DNA from: Myxococcus dinghuensis
Lineage (GTDB): Bacteria; Myxococcota; Myxococcia; Myxococcales; Myxococcaceae
Reading direction: 5' to 3'
Assembly: GCF_024198235.1 (NCBI RefSeq)
Contig: NZ_JAKCFB010000034.1
Span: 1 to 64,000, forward strand
Length of the DNA stretch: 64,000 nt
Of this stretch, positions 7,947-52,582 are shown piece by piece. Position 1 is the first letter of the stretch, and the number at the start of each line of letters is the position of its first letter. The notes under the pieces are model-generated. The model ran no database searches and was not told the DNA's origin. It saw only the letters and a list, made by a program, of their open reading frames with translations. The translations under genes were made by a program, and so were the position numbers.

Positions 7947-9002
7947 TCAGTCGCGCCAGGTGAAGCCCACGCCGAACACCTGGCGCGTGTAGGAGAGGTC
8001 GTTGCGCGGCAGGCGGGTGCTCCACAGGCCCCACGTCACCTCCAGGTCGACGTGGTCCGACACCGGCCGGGCCAGCTTGAGGGACAGGGAGTTCTGCCCC
8101 TCGTCCTCCTCGACCAGGATGATCTCCGGCGAGAGGAAGATGCCGTCCGGGTAGCGGGTGAACCCCAGCGAGCCCTGCGCCAGCAGCGTCACCCGCCAGG
8201 GCAGGCGCACCCCCGCGTTGCCCGTGACGCGGTGGCGCAGCAGCGTCTCGCCGAAGCTGTTGGAGGACGACTCCTGGTACGAGTACGTCAGCCCCAGCGA
8301 CACCGGGCCCCGGTAGGCGTACGTGACGCCCGCGGTGAGCGCGCCGTCCTCGCGCCGTCCGACCCGGGAGCCCAGGGCCCCTGGCCGGGCGCGCGCCTCG
8401 ATGCCGAAGCGGCGCGTGCCGAAGTCCCCGAAGAGCGACAGGCTGTGGCGCCGGTCGAAGCGGTAGCGCCCCAGCACCCCCAGCTCCGGGCCGCCGAAGT
8501 TGGCCGTGGCGTCCGGGCGGTACACGAAGCGCCGGGCCCCCGCGCGCAGCCGCAGCGCCAGGCGCACGTCCGGCGCGTACTCGGCGAAGACGCTCGTCCC
8601 CAGGTCGGAGTAGTCCCGGGAGCCGCCGCGGCGGTCCTTGGCGTGGCCCTCCACGCCCACGCCGAACTCGGTGCCCAGGGCCAGCGAGCCCTCCAGCGCG
8701 CCGGCCTGGATGAGCGTGTCCTCGTCCGCGAAGTCCAGGTACTTGCGCGCCCCCAGCTCGTAGCGGCCCACCACCTGGGTGCGCTCGAAGGTGGCGCGGC
8801 CCTCGGCGGAGCCCAGCACGCTGAGCGCCGTGTCCGCGCCGGGCGCGCGGTTGCTGGTGTCGACGAAGTCCCGGGGCGCGTTGGTGTCCACCATCAACCG
8901 CGCGGTGCCCTTGAGGGTGCCCTCCCATTCGACCGCGGACGCACCCCGGGCCGCGAGGAGCAGCGCGAGCAGCAGCGGCAGTGGGGGGCGGGAGCGATGC
9001 AC
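7947..9002 (-). CDS. Predicted outer-membrane beta-barrel protein of unknown function
   Basis: 351 residues from a GTG at 9002, with an N-terminal signal peptide (basic start, then LPLLLALLLAARGASA). The mature protein alternates polar and hydrophobic residues in many amphipathic strands separated by short Asp/Gly-rich turns (for example GRYELGARKYLDFADEDT, RLALRLRAGARRFVY, VSLGLTYSYQESSSNSF) and ends in VFGVGFTWRD, an outer-membrane-like C-terminal strand. About 14-18 strands are plausible from the length. No transporter motif is seen. It is divergent from the lipoprotein gene at 9116. Confidence 0.7.
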   Translation of the reverse strand: MHRSRPPLPLLLALLLAARGASAVEWEGTLKGTARLMVDTNAPRDFVDTSNRAPGADTALSVLGSAEGRATFERTQVVGRYELGARKYLDFADEDTLIQAGALEGSLALGTEFGVGVEGHAKDRRGGSRDYSDLGTSVFAEYAPDVRLALRLRAGARRFVYRPDATANFGGPELGVLGRYRFDRRHSLSLFGDFGTRRFGIEARARPGALGSRVGRREDGALTAGVTYAYRGPVSLGLTYSYQESSSNSFGETLLRHRVTGNAGVRLPWRVTLLAQGSLGFTRYPDGIFLSPEIILVEEDEGQNSLSLKLARPVSDHVDLEVTWGLWSTRLPRNDLSYTRQVFGVGFTWRD

Positions 9003-9115: not shown

Positions 9116-9655
9116 ATGCGCCCTGCCTTCCTGCTCGCGGCGGTGGTCGGCCTCGGGCTGGCCGCCTGCGCCCAGTCCTCGTTCACCACGGAGGTGACGG
9201 GCGAGACGACCATCCCGGCCAGCCAGCCGGGCGGCAGCACCGAGCTCAACGCCTTCCCCGCCATCAGCAGCCTGGCGGGCATGGACTTCGACCAGAACCA
9301 GGACTTCAAGAACCAGGGCATCACCAAGGGCGAGGTGACGTCCGCCCGGGTCGACTCGCTGACGCTCCAGGTCCTCTCCCCCAACGACCAGGACTTCACC
9401 TTCCTGGACACCGTGGAGTTCTACATCCGCGCGGGGGACCGGGAGACGCGCATCGCCTGGAAGCAGGACGTCGCGCGCGCCAGCCCCAGGCCGCCCCACC
9501 CCACGCTGTCCCTGAACGTGGCGGACACGGAGCTGCAGCCCTACGTGGCCACGCCCTCGGTGAGCATCATCATCCGCGGCAAGGGCCGCACGCCGGAGCG
9601 CGAGGTGCGCCTGCGCGCGGTGGTGCGGCTGGAAGTGGAGACGGGCCTGCTCTGA
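9116..9655 (+). CDS. Lipoprotein of unknown function
   Basis: 179 residues. MRPAFLLAAVVGLGLAAC is a lipoprotein signal with Cys18. The mature part is a single probable beta-sandwich domain (DSLTLQVLSPNDQDFTFLDT, VEFYIRAGDRETRIAWK, VSIIIRGKGRTPEREVRLRA) ending in LEVETGLL. No family is recognised. It is divergent from the barrel protein and nearly touches (13 bases) the convergent coiled-coil gene. Confidence 0.75.
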   Translation: MRPAFLLAAVVGLGLAACAQSSFTTEVTGETTIPASQPGGSTELNAFPAISSLAGMDFDQNQDFKNQGITKGEVTSARVDSLTLQVLSPNDQDFTFLDTVEFYIRAGDRETRIAWKQDVARASPRPPHPTLSLNVADTELQPYVATPSVSIIIRGKGRTPEREVRLRAVVRLEVETGLL

Positions 9656-9668
9656 GGCGCCGCGGCGC

Positions 9669-10727
9669 TCAGGGCGCCGTCAGCTCCTTCGCGCGGCGCT
9701 CCAGGGCGCCCGCCCGTCCGTCCAGCTCGCCCGCCAGCGACTCCAGCCGCTTCGCCTCCGCCTCCATCTGCGCCAGGTCCGCCGGGCCACCCGCCGCCAG
9801 CGCCTGGGCCCGCACGCCGTCGAACTGGGGCCGCCGGTCCGTGGCGCGGGCGGGAGGAGGCGGGGACGGGAGGGAGGGCTCCGACGGGTTGCCGCCGACG
9901 CCCGGGCTGGTGGGGTTGGGGCCGCCCGACATGGGGGGCGAATCGTCCGACATCACCTCGCCGCCGAACATGCCGCCGGAGCGCTGGGTGGGCTCCACCT
10001 GGAGCGTCGCGTCCGAGCTCAGCCGCAGCCGCAGCCGCCGGTCCTGCTCGTCGAACATCGACTCCTCGCCGAGGAAGTCGTTCATCCGGCGATCCAGGTC
10101 CTTCTCCTCGCGCGCCTCGGTGATTCGCGAGCGCAGGAGCTTGAGCCGCTCGCGCACCTTGTCCTCGGCGTCGCGCAGCGTGTCCGCCTGCTCCAGCAGG
10201 TCCTCCGGGTCGTCGCCGCCGGGGGCCGCCCGCTCCAGCGTGGGCAGGCGCGAGGCCGGCAGCGCCGCGCGCACCGCGTCGCGCTCCTCGCGCGTGGCGC
10301 GCATCACCTCCAGCAGCCGCGCGCGCGCCTGTCGCTCCTGGGTGTCGTCCCACGCGGCGCGCAGCCGCGCCAGCTCCTCCGACAGGGCCTGGTGCAGCGC
10401 CAGGTGCGCGCGCTCCGACTCGCCCTCCGCCGTCGCCACCGCCTGGGCCAGCCCGGTGAGCTTGCCGGACAGCTCCTGCGAGCGCCGCAGCGCCGTCTCC
10501 AGCTCGGAGCCCGTCGTCAGCCGCCCCTGTCGCTCCGCCTTCAGCGTCTCGATGCGCGACGCCAGCGCGTTCAGCTCGTCGCGCAGCGCCTGCTGCTGAC
10601 CCCGCAGGCCCCGCGCCTCCGTCCGGACCGCCTGCGCCCGCACCCGCGCGGCCTCCACCCCGGACGCACCCCATGCGGGTGCGCCCAGCACCACGCACAG
10701 CAGGAGGATGGCGGAGCGGAGGTTCAT
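9669..10727 (-). CDS. Exported coiled-coil protein of unknown function
   Basis: 352 residues with a signal peptide (MNLRSAILLLCVVLGAPAWG, cleavage probably just after). Residues ~25-225 are a long heptad-like coiled coil rich in Arg, Glu, Leu and Ala. A Gly/Pro/Ser-rich linker follows (about 250-300, with SEPSLPSPPPPARATD), then a second short coiled coil at the end (LAQMEAEAKRLESLAGELDG). This points to a periplasmic structural or scaffolding protein. It lies downstream of the sigma-54 activator on the same strand, but 172 bases apart. Confidence 0.7.
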   Translation of the reverse strand: MNLRSAILLLCVVLGAPAWGASGVEAARVRAQAVRTEARGLRGQQQALRDELNALASRIETLKAERQGRLTTGSELETALRRSQELSGKLTGLAQAVATAEGESERAHLALHQALSEELARLRAAWDDTQERQARARLLEVMRATREERDAVRAALPASRLPTLERAAPGGDDPEDLLEQADTLRDAEDKVRERLKLLRSRITEAREEKDLDRRMNDFLGEESMFDEQDRRLRLRLSSDATLQVEPTQRSGGMFGGEVMSDDSPPMSGGPNPTSPGVGGNPSEPSLPSPPPPARATDRRPQFDGVRAQALAAGGPADLAQMEAEAKRLESLAGELDGRAGALERRAKELTAP

Positions 10728-46725: not shown

Positions 46726-47673
46726 TCACTCCAGGCCGAGTGCCTCCGCGATGACGGCCTCGTGGGCCACGACGGGCACCCGGGGGAGCGCGTCCACCGA
46801 GAAGGCCCGCGCCAGCGCGTCGAGCGTGCGCGGGCTTCCATCCCCCAGGCCGCTCCACGCGGCGAGCAGGCCGAGCACGCGCTCGGGGGCGACGCCGCGC
46901 TCCCTCAACTCCGCGAGCGCGAAGGCGCCCTCGCGCTTGGCGAGCCGCTTGCCGTCCTCTCCGAACACGAGCGGCACGTGGAGGAAGGCGGGCGCGGGCC
47001 TGCCCAGCGCGGCGTAGAGCTGCAACTGCCGGGGCGTGGAGGAGAGCAGGTCGTCGCCGCGCAGCACGTGGGTGATGTCGCTGGCCGCGTCGTCCACGAC
47101 GACGGCGAGCTGGTAGCTGGCCACCCCGTCGTTGCGGCGCACCACGAAGTCCCCCACCACCGCGTCGACGTCCTGCGTGTACGGCCCCATCAAGCCGTCC
47201 ACGAACGTCACCTCGCCGGGGCGCGCGCGGAAACGCCAGGCCGGCACGCGCGTGCGGGCGCGCTCGGAGCTCTGCGCGGCGGTGAGGTGGGCGCAGGTGC
47301 CGGGGTAGCGCGGGCCCTCCTCGGACAGGCCGTGGGGCGCGCTGGCGGCGCGGGCAATCTCCGCGCGCGTGCAGAAGCACGGATAGACGAGCCCCTGGCG
47401 CTCCAGCGTGGACAGCGTGTCGCGGTACAGGTCGTCGCGCTGGCTCTGGAACAGGGGCGTCTCGTCCCAGTCGAGCCCGAGCCAGCGCAGGTCGCGCATC
47501 AGGTCCTCGACGTACTGGGGCTTGCAGCGCGCCCGGTCCAGGTCCTCGATGCGCAGGAGGAAGCGTCCTCCCGCCGCGCGTGCCTGGAGCCAGCCCAGGA
47601 GCGCGCTGCGGATGTTGCCCAGGTGCATGCGCCCCGTGGGGCTGGGCGCGAAGCGTCCGCGGAAGGTGCTCAT
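46726..47673 (-). CDS. gluQRS: Glutamyl-Q tRNA(Asp) synthetase
   Basis: 315 residues, the length of GluRS catalytic cores without the anticodon-binding domain. It attaches glutamate to queuosine at position 34 of tRNA-Asp. FAPSPTGRMHLGNIRSAL is the HIGH-type region; RIEDLDRARCK, the zinc ligands in YPCFCTRAEI and YPGTCAHL, VVRRNDGVASYQLAVVVDD, HVLRGDDLLSSTPRQ and the KMSKS-like GKRLAKREG follow. It overlaps the PEGA-like gene by 4 bases (ATGA), so the two are coupled. Confidence 0.95.
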   Translation of the reverse strand: MSTFRGRFAPSPTGRMHLGNIRSALLGWLQARAAGGRFLLRIEDLDRARCKPQYVEDLMRDLRWLGLDWDETPLFQSQRDDLYRDTLSTLERQGLVYPCFCTRAEIARAASAPHGLSEEGPRYPGTCAHLTAAQSSERARTRVPAWRFRARPGEVTFVDGLMGPYTQDVDAVVGDFVVRRNDGVASYQLAVVVDDAASDITHVLRGDDLLSSTPRQLQLYAALGRPAPAFLHVPLVFGEDGKRLAKREGAFALAELRERGVAPERVLGLLAAWSGLGDGSPRTLDALARAFSVDALPRVPVVAHEAVIAEALGLE

Positions 47674-48884
47674 GGGCGGACCAGCGGCTTGCGGATGGGC
47701 TGCTCCGGCCTGCGCTCCGGCGTCGCGGCGGGGCGGGCCCTCTCGGGTGACGGCGGGGTGTACGTGGCCTGGGTGGGACGGGCCGGGCGGGAGAAGCCGG
47801 GCGTGGGCGACAGGGGCACGCTCTCCGCGAGCCCCGCCTCCAGGCCCCGCGTGGCCACGGCGGCGACGAGCGTGCGCAGCGGCGCGCCGGCGTCGAGCAG
47901 CTCCAGGTCCATGGCCATGCGCGGCAGCCTGCGCGGGGCCGCGTCTCCCGGGGCGACGAGGAAGGTGTCCACCGCGAGCCCCGGGCCCGCGCGGGACAGG
48001 GTGCCCACGATGACCAGGTCCGCGCCCGCCGCGCGCCCCAGCTCGGCGGCGGCCTGGAGCGCGGCGGTGTCCAGGCGGTTGTCCGCGAGGGCATGGGCGA
48101 GCGTGGCGGAGGGGCCGGTGCCGGAGGGCTGGATGGTGACGGTGGCTTCCGCGCCGGAGCGCGCCTCCACGATGCCGCCCACGGTGTCGCCGGAGGGGAG
48201 GGCGGCGCGCCACAGGTGCGCGCCGGGTGGCACCTGGGTGACGCGCACGGGCGCCGGGCCCACTGGGACGCCGTCGAGCGTCACGGCGATGCCGGGCGGC
48301 ATGGCGTCGAAGCGGACGGTGCCCGGCGGTTGGGCGCCGAGGGTGGTGCGCACGCGCTCGACGGTATGGGTGAAGAGGGGCGAGGTGGCGGCGAGCGGGA
48401 GGTCCCGGTCGGGCGCGACGGCGAGCGCGTTCGAGAGGTCGAGCGTGGCCTCGTCATCGCGGCCGGTGGCGAAGCGCACGGCGGCGCGGAGCGCGTAGGT
48501 GTCGGCGAGCTCGGCGGCTTCGGGCAGGCCCTGGGCGTAGGCGTCCAGCGCGCGGCTCAGCGCGGCGTCGGCCCGGGCGAAGTCGCGCGTGTCGCGTGCG
48601 GCGGTGGCCTCGCGGACGGCGGCGCGGGCGGTGGTGAGCACGTCGGGCGTGGGGGCCGGCTCGGCTCCGGAGGAGGGTGGTGTGGCTTCGACGAGGGCGA
48701 GGCCCTGCGCGCCATGGACCTCCGACGCGAGCCTCGCGGCGAGCCGTGGCCCGGCGCGCGCGGGGACATCCCCGGAGACGGCCTGGAACGGGAGGACGAC
48801 CACCTTCTTCCGGGACGGGTCCGGGCGCGCGGCCAGGGCCGTGGTGCCGGACAGGAGGATGAGCAGGAGCGCGAGTCGCTTCAT
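47670..48884 (-). CDS. Exported TPR/PEGA-like protein
   Basis: 404 residues with signal peptide MKRLALLLILLSGTTALA. The first domain reads KKVVVLPFQAVSGDVPARAG with a Rossmann-like look often found in TolB-N/CsgG-like regions. TPR helices follow (ARADAALSRALDAYAQ, ALRAAVRFATGRDDEATLDL), then a PEGA-like beta domain (GTVRFDAMPPGIAVTLDGVP, VPVGPAPVRVTQVPPGAHLW). A second alpha/beta part (GADLVIVGTLSRAG) and a Pro-rich tail end the protein. It is translationally coupled to gluQRS, an odd pairing with no obvious shared role. Confidence 0.75.
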   Translation of the reverse strand: MKRLALLLILLSGTTALAARPDPSRKKVVVLPFQAVSGDVPARAGPRLAARLASEVHGAQGLALVEATPPSSGAEPAPTPDVLTTARAAVREATAARDTRDFARADAALSRALDAYAQGLPEAAELADTYALRAAVRFATGRDDEATLDLSNALAVAPDRDLPLAATSPLFTHTVERVRTTLGAQPPGTVRFDAMPPGIAVTLDGVPVGPAPVRVTQVPPGAHLWRAALPSGDTVGGIVEARSGAEATVTIQPSGTGPSATLAHALADNRLDTAALQAAAELGRAAGADLVIVGTLSRAGPGLAVDTFLVAPGDAAPRRLPRMAMDLELLDAGAPLRTLVAAVATRGLEAGLAESVPLSPTPGFSRPARPTQATYTPPSPERARPAATPERRPEQPIRKPLVRP

Positions 48885-48962: not shown

Positions 48963-50006
48963 CTACTGGGCGGCGGGTTGGAGGTTGTGCCGCTGCTTGA
49001 AGCGTTGCCACTGCTGCGCCAGGGAGTCTTCGGGGGGCTCGTCCAGGGGGGTGGGCGTCCCGCGCGGGTCGTGCGGACTCGCGAGCAGGCGGGTCCGCTG
49101 GACGGGGCGCTCGCCGTAGCGCTCACGCAGCAGGTCGAAGGCGAGGCGCGCCCAGTAGGGAGGGTCCTCGGGTTCCTTCTGGAGCAGCGCCTCCAGGGCG
49201 TTCGTGGCGGCGCGGTCCACGTCCCGGCTCGCGAAGCCTCGCAGGGCGGTGAGCATCATGGGCAGTTCGTCGTCGACGAGCGGGTGCTTCGCGGTGCTCG
49301 CCGCGAGCAGCGCGCGGTGCTCCGTCGTCAGGTAGGGCTCCACTTGGAGGAAGGCGCGGGGCCGCGCGTGCGCCGGGGCGCCGTCGGAGGGCAGGCCGGC
49401 GAGGCCATCCCGACGGGTCGCGGGCAGGGTGGCGGCGAAGACCTGCCAGTTGAGGCGCGTCACGCCCAGGTCGTAGGTCCTGCCGGCGATGCGTGAGTGG
49501 ATCCACTCCTCCTGCGTCATCCGGGCGAGCCGGACCACCTGTCGGTAGGCCGCGGTCGCCAGCGCGTCGGGCAGGGTGCGCGTCCCGTCCGCGAGGGCGG
49601 GGGTGCGCCACTGGCCGCGCTCGCGCACGAGGAACACGAGGACGGAGAACCCGGGCTCGTAGCTCGCGTCATCGGGGCCGTTCAGCTCGGGCTGGAAGTG
49701 CACCTCGATGCGCTCGCCGTCATGCTCGGAGCCCTTCCACGTCTCGCGGACATGGAGCCGGGCGATGGCATCCGTGGGGGACCGGACGCCGCTGGGCGGC
49801 GGCGCGGACTCCTCCACCTCCTCGACGTCCGCCCACACCACGAGCTGCGCTTCGGCCGTCAGGTCCCAGAGCGTCCGCGGGGGCCTGGCCTCCGCTCCCC
49901 GCACGGGAGCGAGGGCCATGAAGCACAACAGGGTCAACGGGAGCAGTCGCGTCCCCAGGCGTCCAGTGGACGAGCCGCCATGGGGAACGGGGCTGTGCTC
50001 TCGCAT
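48963..50006 (-). CDS. Secreted protein, tandem paralogue A of three
   Basis: 347 residues from the ATG at 50006, which has AGGAGCG six bases before it. The signal peptide is long (MREHSPVPHGGSSTGRLGTR, then LLPLTLLCFMALAPVRGAEA). The mature part opens with LWDLTAEAQLVVWADVEEVE, then ARLHVRETWKGSEHDGERIE and VLVFLVRERGQWRTPALADG, a beta-rich domain of about 120 residues shared by the three genes. A helical second half ends in LAQQWQRFKQRHNLQPAAQ, also shared. No known family is recognised. The domain layout suggests a small binding domain followed by a helical repeat region (LPMMLTALRGFASRDVDRAA). Confidence 0.7.
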   Translation of the reverse strand: MREHSPVPHGGSSTGRLGTRLLPLTLLCFMALAPVRGAEARPPRTLWDLTAEAQLVVWADVEEVEESAPPPSGVRSPTDAIARLHVRETWKGSEHDGERIEVHFQPELNGPDDASYEPGFSVLVFLVRERGQWRTPALADGTRTLPDALATAAYRQVVRLARMTQEEWIHSRIAGRTYDLGVTRLNWQVFAATLPATRRDGLAGLPSDGAPAHARPRAFLQVEPYLTTEHRALLAASTAKHPLVDDELPMMLTALRGFASRDVDRAATNALEALLQKEPEDPPYWARLAFDLLRERYGERPVQRTRLLASPHDPRGTPTPLDEPPEDSLAQQWQRFKQRHNLQPAAQ

Positions 50007-50136
50007 GCAGCGCTCCTCGTCGAACTGGGAGTCCGGAAGTCCTCGCGGCCCGCCCGGTCAACGTCGCGCATTCTTCCATGGATGCCTCGCGATGGCGACC
50101 CGGCGAGGGATGACGCGGGGAGCCGCGGAGCCACAC

Positions 50137-51198
50137 TCAGGGGGTGGACCGAGGCTGGGGGAGCACGAGGCGAGGGTTCAGGCGATGGCGCTGCCTGAAG
50201 CTCTGCCATCGCTGGGGCAGGGGGGCTTGGGAAGTGAGGCCCATGAGCGACGACACGCGACCCAGCCAGGTCGGGGCGAGCTCGAAGGAGTGCTCCCCCA
50301 GGCGCTCGAGCAGCAGCTCGAACGCGGTCACCTCGAAGTCGGTGTCGCCACGCTCGGGAGCGGACTGGAGTCGAGCGTCGAGGACGTCCACGGCGAGTTG
50401 GTCCAGATGCGGGTTCTTGAAGCCTCGCATGGCGAAGAGCAGGTTCGTCAAATCGCGGATGGGCGGCGGGGGTGGCACCGCGCTGGCCTCCATGAGACGA
50501 CGATGCGCCGCCGTCATCCCGGCGCGGGGTGAGTCGCCCGATTCGTCCGCGCGTGACCAGGGCCAGGAGGTGACCCGTGCGGTCCACTCCAGGTCCTCGC
50601 ATGCGGAGTCAGCCACGGCGGGGATGAACCCGCGTGACGACCAGCGCTCCTGGAGGCGTCGCTCCTGGTGGTACCATTGGCGCCTGCGGTCGATCTTGGC
50701 TGGGTCGTCCGGATAGGCAATTCCTCCAAAGGAGGCGTCGGGCACGATCCACGTTCCATTCCACCGGTCGAGAAAGAGGATGACTGTGCGTCCTGTCTCG
50801 AAGCGCGGGGGCGTGGGGCATATCTGGTCGGCGTCGAAGTGGATCTCGATGAATTCGTTGTCGATCCGGCGGCCCTTCCAGGTCTCGAGCACCTGAAGGC
50901 GGGCAATGTCCCGCTCGATGAAGCCCGTCTTGCAGCCGAGCGATATCGCGAGTGGGGCCTGGGGCCGCCTCGTCCACGGCAACGGCTTCACTCGAACCTG
51001 CTGGACCTCCGCCAAGACCAGCCATGTCGTGCTCTCCAACCTGTCTTCGGGAGAGAGGGGCGCGCGCGGGTCTGCGTCGGCGCGTGAGCCGTGAGTGAGC
51101 ACTCCGAGCAGAGGCATGAGCCACGGCCACGAGCGCCGCGGGAGCGGCGACGTTCGCCTCGGCAAACCTCGCGGAATGGACCCTTGCGTTCGGGACAC
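50137..51198 (-). CDS. Secreted protein, tandem paralogue B of three
   Basis: 353 residues from the GTG at 51198, preceded by GAGGAGG five bases away; longer open frames upstream have no such site. The signal contains RRSWPWLMPLLGVLTHGSRADA. The shared core is recognisable (TTWLVLAEVQQVRVKPL, ARLQVLETWKGRRIDNEFIE, VILFLDRWNGTWIVPDASFG) and so is the tail LPQRWQSFRQRHRLNP. It is the most diverged copy and its composition is slightly less GC-rich than A and C. Confidence 0.68.
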   Translation of the reverse strand: MSRTQGSIPRGLPRRTSPLPRRSWPWLMPLLGVLTHGSRADADPRAPLSPEDRLESTTWLVLAEVQQVRVKPLPWTRRPQAPLAISLGCKTGFIERDIARLQVLETWKGRRIDNEFIEIHFDADQICPTPPRFETGRTVILFLDRWNGTWIVPDASFGGIAYPDDPAKIDRRRQWYHQERRLQERWSSRGFIPAVADSACEDLEWTARVTSWPWSRADESGDSPRAGMTAAHRRLMEASAVPPPPPIRDLTNLLFAMRGFKNPHLDQLAVDVLDARLQSAPERGDTDFEVTAFELLLERLGEHSFELAPTWLGRVSSLMGLTSQAPLPQRWQSFRQRHRLNPRLVLPQPRSTP

Positions 51199-51305
51199 GG
51201 AGTCCTCCTCGTCGAGACGGAGAGACTCCCGCGATGCGCGATGGACGTGGCCGTCCGGTGCCCATGATGACGTCATCGTTTCGTCATGAGCGCCGTGGAC
51301 TCGCT

Positions 51306-52400
51306 TCAGGGAGGTGTATCGCCTCCCGTTCCCGAGACGAGCGGCTTGCGTTGGAGCGGGGGATGGGGCGCTGGCTTCAGGTGATGGCGTTGTTTGAATT
51401 GCTCCCACTGCCGCGCGAGGTGGTGCAGCTCCTCCTGGGGCATTGTCGTCAGCGTCCGGTCTTCGAGGAGGTCGGATGGCCTTTCGACCTTTTCGCCAAG
51501 CCGCTCTCGCAGGAGGTCGAACGCGAGTCGGGTCCAGAGGGGGATGTCTTTCCCGGGTGGGTTGAACAGGGTCTCGAGCGCGCTCGTCGCCGCTGCGTCG
51601 ACCTCGTCGTTCGCGAAGCCGCGCAGGGCGGCGAGCAGCATCGGCAGCGCTTCCTCGGTGGGCGGGTCCTTCACGAAGCCGTCCGCCAACTGCTTCCGGT
51701 GGGCCTGCGTCAGGTTCGGCGCCGTCTTGGCGGGGCGCTGGTCATAGAAGAAGTGATTCGTGTCGGATTGAGGGAGGAGGTCGTAGAGCGCATCCCAGCG
51801 GAGCGCGGGCTGCGTGGCCGCGAACACCGACCAGTCCAGATGCAACCGTGCGAGGTCCGCCGGCGGGCTCCCCTCCTTCGTCGAGGTGGCGTGGACCTGG
51901 GCCCGATGGGCCCGCGTCACGGCTTGTCGATAGGACTCTGTCTCGACCGCGTCCGCTGGGTACCGGGTCCCATGGGACAGCGCCACCGTCCGCCATCTTC
52001 CCTGGTCCTGCTCGAGGAACGCGACCACGGCGAGCCCGGGCTCGTACCGGGGTGGCGCGGGGCAGATGACCGTGGGCGAGAAAGACACGCCGATGCGCTC
52101 GCCCACTTGTGCCGTGCCCTTCCAGACCTCGCGGATGCGCAGCGTCGCCACGGACTCGTCCAAGAACGCGAACTTGTTGTCCTTGTCTTCGGCTGAGCGC
52201 GGGACTTCCTCGACGCCCTCGACGTCGGCCCACACCACCAGCCCCGCGCGCTCCGTCAGTTCCCAGAGTGGGACGGGGGAGATGGGGTAGGCCTCCGCCC
52301 GGCGCATGGGCACGACCAACAGCAGGCACAGGGTCAGCACCCACGGGCCTGATGCGAGACTGCCTTGGATGGGATGGGGGCCCGGGGCTCGTCGACGCAT
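51306..52400 (-). CDS. Secreted protein, tandem paralogue C of three
   Basis: 364 residues from the ATG at 52400, with AGGAGGT directly upstream. The signal is SGPWVLTLCLLLVVPMRRAEA. The core LWELTERAGLVVWADVEGVE, ATLRIREVWKGTAQVGERIG and VVAFLEQDQGRWRTVALSHG is close to copy A, as are LPMLLAALRGFANDEVDAAA, WTRLAFDLLRERLGEKVERP and the end LARQWEQFKQRHHLKP. The tail is longer and basic. A and C are clearly the closest pair, so B branched off earlier or changed faster. Confidence 0.7.
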   Translation of the reverse strand: MRRRAPGPHPIQGSLASGPWVLTLCLLLVVPMRRAEAYPISPVPLWELTERAGLVVWADVEGVEEVPRSAEDKDNKFAFLDESVATLRIREVWKGTAQVGERIGVSFSPTVICPAPPRYEPGLAVVAFLEQDQGRWRTVALSHGTRYPADAVETESYRQAVTRAHRAQVHATSTKEGSPPADLARLHLDWSVFAATQPALRWDALYDLLPQSDTNHFFYDQRPAKTAPNLTQAHRKQLADGFVKDPPTEEALPMLLAALRGFANDEVDAAATSALETLFNPPGKDIPLWTRLAFDLLRERLGEKVERPSDLLEDRTLTTMPQEELHHLARQWEQFKQRHHLKPAPHPPLQRKPLVSGTGGDTPP

Positions 52401-52582
52401 GTGACCTCCTCTGGAAGACGTGGACAGCCTGGGCCATCCCCGGCAGCCGAGGCTCATCGCGTGCCCATTCGTTCGTCATGGTTCCGTCACGCTGCCCACC
52501 CGGTCGCAATGGGGCTTCCCTCCACGGCGACTCCGGAGAGAATGTCCAGCCCCGGTCACCGGTTGTCCGGGCCGGAACTCCG

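Follow-up and report, generated by a model that had tools for sequence, protein, structure and literature searches.

We analyzed a stretch of 64,000 nucleotides from Myxococcus dinghuensis (contig NZ_JAKCFB010000034.1; the whole stretch is hereafter called the window), in which three genes, designated A, B, and C (collectively A–C), form a tandem array on the minus strand with gaps of 131 and 108 bases (Table 1). By computational analysis, the front half of protein C is predicted to be of the NTR type, and homologous single-domain proteins were found to be co-translated with matrixins across Myxococcota, both of which are new here; already known are pairs of a metzincin and a TIMP-like protein in Gram-positive bacteria.

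Genes A–C and their family

Gene A starts at ATG 50006 (ribosome site GACGAGGAGCGCTGC-ATG), gene B at GTG 51198 (GACGAGGAGGACTCC-GTG), and gene C at ATG 52400 (CCAGAGGAGGTCAC-ATG). All three ribosome sites are of the GAGGAG type and lie 6–10 bases 5' of the start, in agreement with a preliminary description of this DNA, which had assigned each gene a site of its own. The frame of B stays open up to 51408, and that longer version has no ribosome site. As read from the sequence, the N-termini of A–C carry a hydrophobic, signal-peptide-like segment that closes in A-x-A, which is consistent with the secretion proposed in that description, and no lipobox cysteine was seen in the alignment at the end of this segment in any of the three. 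The core that had been given as LVVWADVE/ETWKG holds in part, with LVVWADVE present in A and C and WKG in all three, but B has LVLAEVQ, and ETWKG, as found in A and B, reads EVWKG in C. Likewise, the C-terminal motif is present in all three, although its literal Q-R-W occurs only in B, and the improved form is [QR][QR]W-x-x-F-[KR]-QRH. Many family members outside the window (L025-L029, L036, L043, and others) have a conserved C-terminal tail, LPLPVEPPVPGTGG[DEN][ST], of which C retains GTGGDT only; A and B are without it.

Table 1. Features of genes A–C in the window.
Feature	Position	Strand	Remarks
Gene A	48963..50006	minus	347 amino acids; putatively exported NTR-helical protein; without C-D loop cysteine and upstream box
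Gene B	50137..51198	minus	353 amino acids from GTG 51198; paralogue with most divergence
Gene C	51306..52400	minus	364 amino acids; putatively exported NTR-helical protein; structure predicted for C
Signal-peptide-like segment of A	49899..50006	minus	putative cleavage near AEA/RPP; read from the letters, boundary approximate
Signal-peptide-like segment of C	52293..52400	minus	putative cleavage near AEA/YPI; boundary approximate
NTR-fold domain of A (predicted)	49500..49898	minus	by alignment with C
NTR-fold domain of B (predicted)	50638..51081	minus	by alignment with C
NTR-fold domain of C (predicted)	51885..52292	minus	mature residues 1-136; predicted strands 18-29, 47-58, 66-71, 88-96, 99-102
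Loop CPAPPRY of C	52043..52063	minus	mature residues 77-83, between predicted strands 3 and 4
Helical C-terminal domain of A	48966..49499	minus	tail motif QQWQRFKQRH
Helical C-terminal domain of B	50140..50637	minus	–
Helical C-terminal domain of C	51309..51884	minus	mature residues 137-328; without confident fold match
Box RTGAYG-N5-RTGAYG-N5-RTG upstream of B	51263..51287	minus	one of three exact genome copies
Box RTGAYG-N5-RTGAYG-N5-RTG upstream of C	52466..52490	minus	one of three exact genome copies

Pairwise BLASTP indicated 45% identity over 322 amino acids between A and C (E 3e-70), 32% between A and B (E 4e-28), and 29% between B and C (E 3e-30), with a homology that spans almost the full length and a similarity far above chance, confirming the paralogy proposed for the open reading frames at 48963, 50137, and 51306. 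A–C are the sole three copies in their own genome (10.4 Mb). The number of synonymous substitutions per site (dS) was 0.93 between A and C, 0.84 between A and B, and 1.04 between B and C, that of nonsynonymous ones (dN) was 0.47–0.82 between the copies, and a dN/dS of about 0.2–0.35 between orthologues indicated moderate purifying selection. In the tree, A groups with its orthologue in the closest relative (G070), A–C do not group as a recent duplication, and B forms a long branch of unsure position; other arrays likewise hold old copies inherited separately. The closest relative has an A that is 80% identical, only a 3' fragment of B, and no C. The copies are, thus, old and are being lost in that relative.

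A member of this family, referred to as the long family, was found at E<=0.01 in 22 of 96 genomes of the taxonomic family, the number of copies per genome being 0 to 4, often in tandem (four in G072). The preliminary description would have been contradicted by a known family match or by single-copy orthologues with an assigned role in all relatives; what was found was this patchy family, with 1–4 copies in the genomes that have it. A search of the genome contigs with an alignment of the family (A3) detected five loci, all in Myxococcaceae; a scan of the contigs with C alone and a search of plasmids gave no match. In two genomes of another genus (loci L032 and L033), the family gene lies just downstream of tRNA-Gly(CCC), and the tRNA as a general insertion point was rejected, these being the only loci that adjoin tRNA-Gly.

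Predicted fold of protein C

Structure prediction, which the preliminary description had proposed as a check on the core, was conducted by AlphaFold2 for mature C only, with eight sequences in the alignment. The model, with a predicted local distance difference test score (pLDDT) of 77 (above 90 for residues 10-30 and 50-70) and a predicted template modeling score (pTM) of 0.75, has a short helix, five strands, and then helices in this order, supporting the beta-rich front and helical middle described previously. In a Foldseek comparison of the model with the PDB, the top 20 rows were all NTR-type domains (best E 5.7e-3), with matches to agrin NtA, TIMP-1/2/3, the PCOLCE NTR domain, and complement C345C. 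By VIA-align, all 50 rows were NTR domains, including those of chicken agrin (NtA; 1pxu; Z 11.8, root-mean-square deviation 2.4, 114 aligned), TIMP-1 (6mav; Z 10.5, deviation 3.0, 114 aligned), and TIMP-3 (3cki; Z 10.3). The front half of C is, hence, predicted to have the NTR/TIMP fold, a five-stranded OB barrel in the NTR arrangement. The helical half, modeled alone (pLDDT 67; pTM 0.64), had no Foldseek match to known structures below E 1.7 and a best Z of 5.7, and it is conserved as strongly as the front half, with invariant W, R, D, and G and the W-x-x-F-x-QRH tail.

In the curated families of Pfam, NCBIfam, and PADLOC, no match above the cut-off was found for A, B, or C; NF033920 for A (E 9e-4, but 18.8 of 150 bits) and the matches of TPR_14 and HEAT_2 were rejected as far under the cut-off. 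A search of the PDB by sequence gave nothing convincing, and a description of this family was not found in the literature. The view of the family as unrecognized, therefore, holds with respect to curated sequence families but not with respect to the front domain, which is predicted to have the NTR/TIMP fold and belongs to a matrixin-linked superfamily present throughout the phylum, as described below.

Single-domain relatives co-translated with matrixins

When a profile of the long family (A2) was searched through 195 Myxococcota genomes, in line with the wide search suggested in the preliminary description, the matches, which lay in the front domain, included many exported proteins across the phylum that have a single domain and a length of about 180–230 amino acids. 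An alignment of 20 of these relatives (A5) matched the long family in hhalign with a probability of 98.8 and an E of 5.7e-17 over 127 columns, and its profile found A (2.5e-10) and C (3.4e-10) in their own genome. Matches of A5 were present in 178 of the 195 genomes, a number that includes a few genomes with possibly long-family matches, as A5 also scores the long family, and the best matches listed were overwhelmingly single-domain. In contrast to the patchy long family, the single-domain family occurs almost throughout the phylum.

The neighbors of the single-domain genes were evaluated by the zincin motif HE-x-[GA]-H-x-x-G-x-x-H (HExxHxxGxxH). A same-strand gene with this motif lay directly downstream of the NTR gene at 16 of 20 phylogenetically spread loci, which were taken from families f1, f3, f9, f10, f17, and f28 of the search, and also at all of the 30 best A5 loci, which are mostly from one taxonomic family and, hence, not independent, and in the own genome. 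At all 31 junctions measured, the stop of the NTR gene and the start of the protease gene overlap by 4 bases. Pfam Peptidase_M10 scored above its cut-off at L074, L075, and the own-genome operon (L118, L171), where the NTR gene (G000:C101:7669-8208) is followed by two matrixin genes (8613-8897 and 9233-9853), both among the only ten Peptidase_M10 matches in that genome at E<=0.01. This gene order, NTR and then matrixin, recurs across Myxococcota, and the single-domain NTR proteins (~190 amino acids) are probably inhibitors, chaperones, or regulators of their matrixins. In the own-genome operon (G000:C101:7669-9853), the NTR gene overlaps a matrixin by 4 bases, the second matrixin and an open reading frame resembling a HAD-type phosphatase come next, and a glutamyl-tRNA synthetase-like gene adjoins. 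The matrixin frames at L074 and L075 end in a cysteine-rich or hydrophobic-RRRR tail that resembles MYXO-CTERM sorting signals.

In TIMPs, Cys1 of the Cys-x-Cys N-terminus chelates the zinc of the protease, and the cysteine in the C-D loop is bonded to Cys1 at the reactive site. In the long family, almost every core member, B and C among them, has a single cysteine in the CPAPPRY loop after predicted strand 3, which is the sole cysteine of most mature members and which we take to be at the place of the TIMP C-D loop cysteine, the match being made by strand counting and not by residue-level alignment. A cysteine near the mature N-terminus was found only in the distant relatives L021, L022, and L038, and L021 has exactly two mature cysteines, one N-terminal and the other in the strand-3 loop.

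A shared upstream box

Of 27 family genes, 16 carry a box, RTGAYG-N5-RTGAYG (<=1 mismatch), about 90 bases 5' of the start, compared with 0.8% of random 130-mers drawn from these loci, and no RTGAYG repeats at other spacings were found upstream of family genes. Its 11-base period is reminiscent of the direct-repeat sites of OmpR/PhoB-type regulators. The genome has just three sites of the triple form: 5' of B, 5' of C, and 5' of an exported endonuclease/exonuclease-like lipoprotein gene (L175). Because the reversed-pattern control also gives one match, the third site may be a chance match. Gene A has no box, and a scan of the A–C region for sigma-70 promoters gave nothing above chance.

Proposed role and alternatives

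Starting from the computed paralogy of A–C, the predicted NTR fold, the homology to matrixin-linked NTR proteins, the loss of that linkage, the patchiness, and the shared box, we propose, with a probability of roughly 0.45, that A–C are stand-alone NTR-helical proteins that arose from a matrixin-partner domain and still bind extracellular metalloproteases. Each would be an exported two-domain protein with an N-terminal NTR domain (TIMP-type OB) and a C-terminal helical domain, and the NTR domain would be an offshoot of the phylum-wide single-domain family that is co-translated directly upstream of matrixins. The long family would have left the protease operon and acquired the helical domain, and it would now be a multi-copy accessory family with a patchy distribution. 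It would most likely act in trans, with the NTR domain docking, outside the cytoplasm, on a metalloprotease, either one of the cell's own matrixins or one of those of prey or competitors, and with the helical domain setting the specificity or anchoring a second partner, and the diverged copies could thereby cover different targets. A–C may, thus, regulate or block extracellular proteases as free-standing proteins, for which export, protease binding, inhibition, and a division of labor between copies are what we infer. It is a bolder and rather unlikely suggestion that the phylum-wide co-translated system is the Gram-negative counterpart of the TIMP–matrix metalloproteinase system and its spin-off in Myxococcus a patchy, multi-copy set of free-standing NTR-helical proteins inhibiting foreign or own extracellular metalloproteases in trans, for which a role in predation or kin conflict could be imagined.

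Several points weigh against this proposal. No HExxHxxGxxH gene was found beside long-family members at any of 20 loci (10-19 kb each for most), nor was the motif found in the 64 kb window. The mature N-termini of A–C have no cysteine and, hence, no TIMP reactive Cys-x-Cys, and A and its orthologue have lost the loop cysteine as well. Fold similarity in a predicted model by itself says nothing of function, the NTR domains of agrin, netrin, PCOLCE, and complement are not known as metalloprotease inhibitors, and the putative NTR fold of the single-domain relatives derives from profile homology. The Pfam profiles of TIMP (PF00965) and NTR (PF01759) miss A–C, with no match in the own genome at E<=10, and, hence, lend no support to a descent from animal TIMPs.

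Chief among the alternatives is that the NTR domain was re-used merely as a binding scaffold for a partner other than a protease, such as a matrix polysaccharide, a lipid, or an envelope or surface protein, with a functional helical half, for example in surface or matrix assembly. We regard it as a serious, if tentative, alternative, as the protease linkage is wholly lost in the long family, the helical half is conserved as well as the front half, and purifying selection (dN/dS about 0.2-0.35 between orthologues) persists without a nearby protease; agrin and netrin NTR domains, too, bind without inhibiting. Against it stand the tight coupling of the sister family to proteases across the phylum and the fact that TIMPs also act in trans, unlinked to their targets. 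It is improbable that A–C form an immunity-like array, in which diverged copies turned over by gain and loss guard against toxins or proteases that competing or predatory kin secrete: the patchy occurrence of 0-4 tandem copies, the loss and truncation in the closest relative, and a locus spacer varying from ~0.1 to 5.2 kb would fit, but no toxin gene was recognized beside members, there was no PADLOC match, and orthologues are under purifying, not gene-wide diversifying, selection. The selection for dosage that the preliminary description read from the local triplication, in which the amount of one secreted protein would be boosted by recent copies, has tandem order and separate ribosome sites in its favor but is very improbable and largely refuted by the divergence of A–C, because the copies are old (29-45% identity; dS 0.84-1.04), differ in the loop cysteine and upstream box, do not group together, have old, separately inherited counterparts in other arrays, and show ongoing loss in the closest relative.

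Comparison with known systems

The control of matrixins by TIMPs is a textbook animal system, and the matrixins include karilysin, a KLIKK protease. The TIMP/NTR domains (PF00965, PF01759) share with the long family the predicted front-domain fold of C (Z 10-12 to N-TIMP-1, N-TIMP-3, agrin NtA, and the PCOLCE NTR domain), the apparent export, and, in most members, the strand-3 loop cysteine, whereas A–C are bacterial, are fused to a helical domain, and have neither a Pfam match nor the Cys-x-Cys N-terminus; the long family has at most one conserved cysteine compared with six in N-TIMP. Closer to home, the front domain of A–C is homologous to the single-domain NTR proteins, such as that of the own genome (G000:C101:7669-8208), which lack the helical domain and, in that case, are co-translated with two matrixins.

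In Listeria and other Gram-positive bacteria, a metzincin and a TIMP-like lipoprotein form the Mtz-Tim pair, in which the Listeria metzincin cleaves Tim, which is released, and this 2021 study reported having found no earlier record of bacterial proteins with a TIMP-like structure (PMC8235301). The Tim protein is, like A–C, a bacterial exported protein that is TIMP-like, and a metzincin gene accompanies the single-domain sister family as well. In Listeria, however, the gene order is protease and then Tim, a lipoprotein, whereas in the sister family of the Gram-negative Myxococcota the NTR gene precedes that of the protease and overlaps it by 4 nt, and A–C have no metzincin neighbor, no lipobox, and an additional helical domain. 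In Tannerella forsythia, the genes of the potempins, which are inhibitors, directly precede those of KLIKK proteases (PMC7296668). This gene order resembles that of the sister NTR-matrixin operon; potempins are small lipoproteins, and A–C are unlinked to a protease. Because of these bacterial precedents, A–C represent a variation on a known theme. The finding that most genomes in this phylum of social predators have a predicted NTR fold in co-translation with matrixins, together with a stand-alone accessory branch, offers a testable NTR-metzincin partnership, which may be ancient or convergent, and provides the three unnamed genes with a first biochemical hypothesis.

Surroundings of the locus

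The A–C locus is flanked on one side by an exported PEGA/TPR-like gene and a glutamyl-Q tRNA synthetase-like gene and on the other by metallophosphoesterase and adenylate-cyclase-like genes, all named by inspection of their sequences. The same locus is used in G070, G061, G064, and G058, and the remaining members are located elsewhere. The spacing between the two flanking genes was ~0.1 kb in G079, 1.8 kb in G070, 3.7 kb in the own genome, and 5.2 kb in G064, and no family remnants were detected in the empty or short loci of G055, G057, G054, G068, G067, G073, G056, G063, and G079. The PEGA/TPR-like gene beside A (window 47670-48884) is absent from the 9 Mb genomes and present in 14 of 27 Myxococcus genomes (E<=1e-30).

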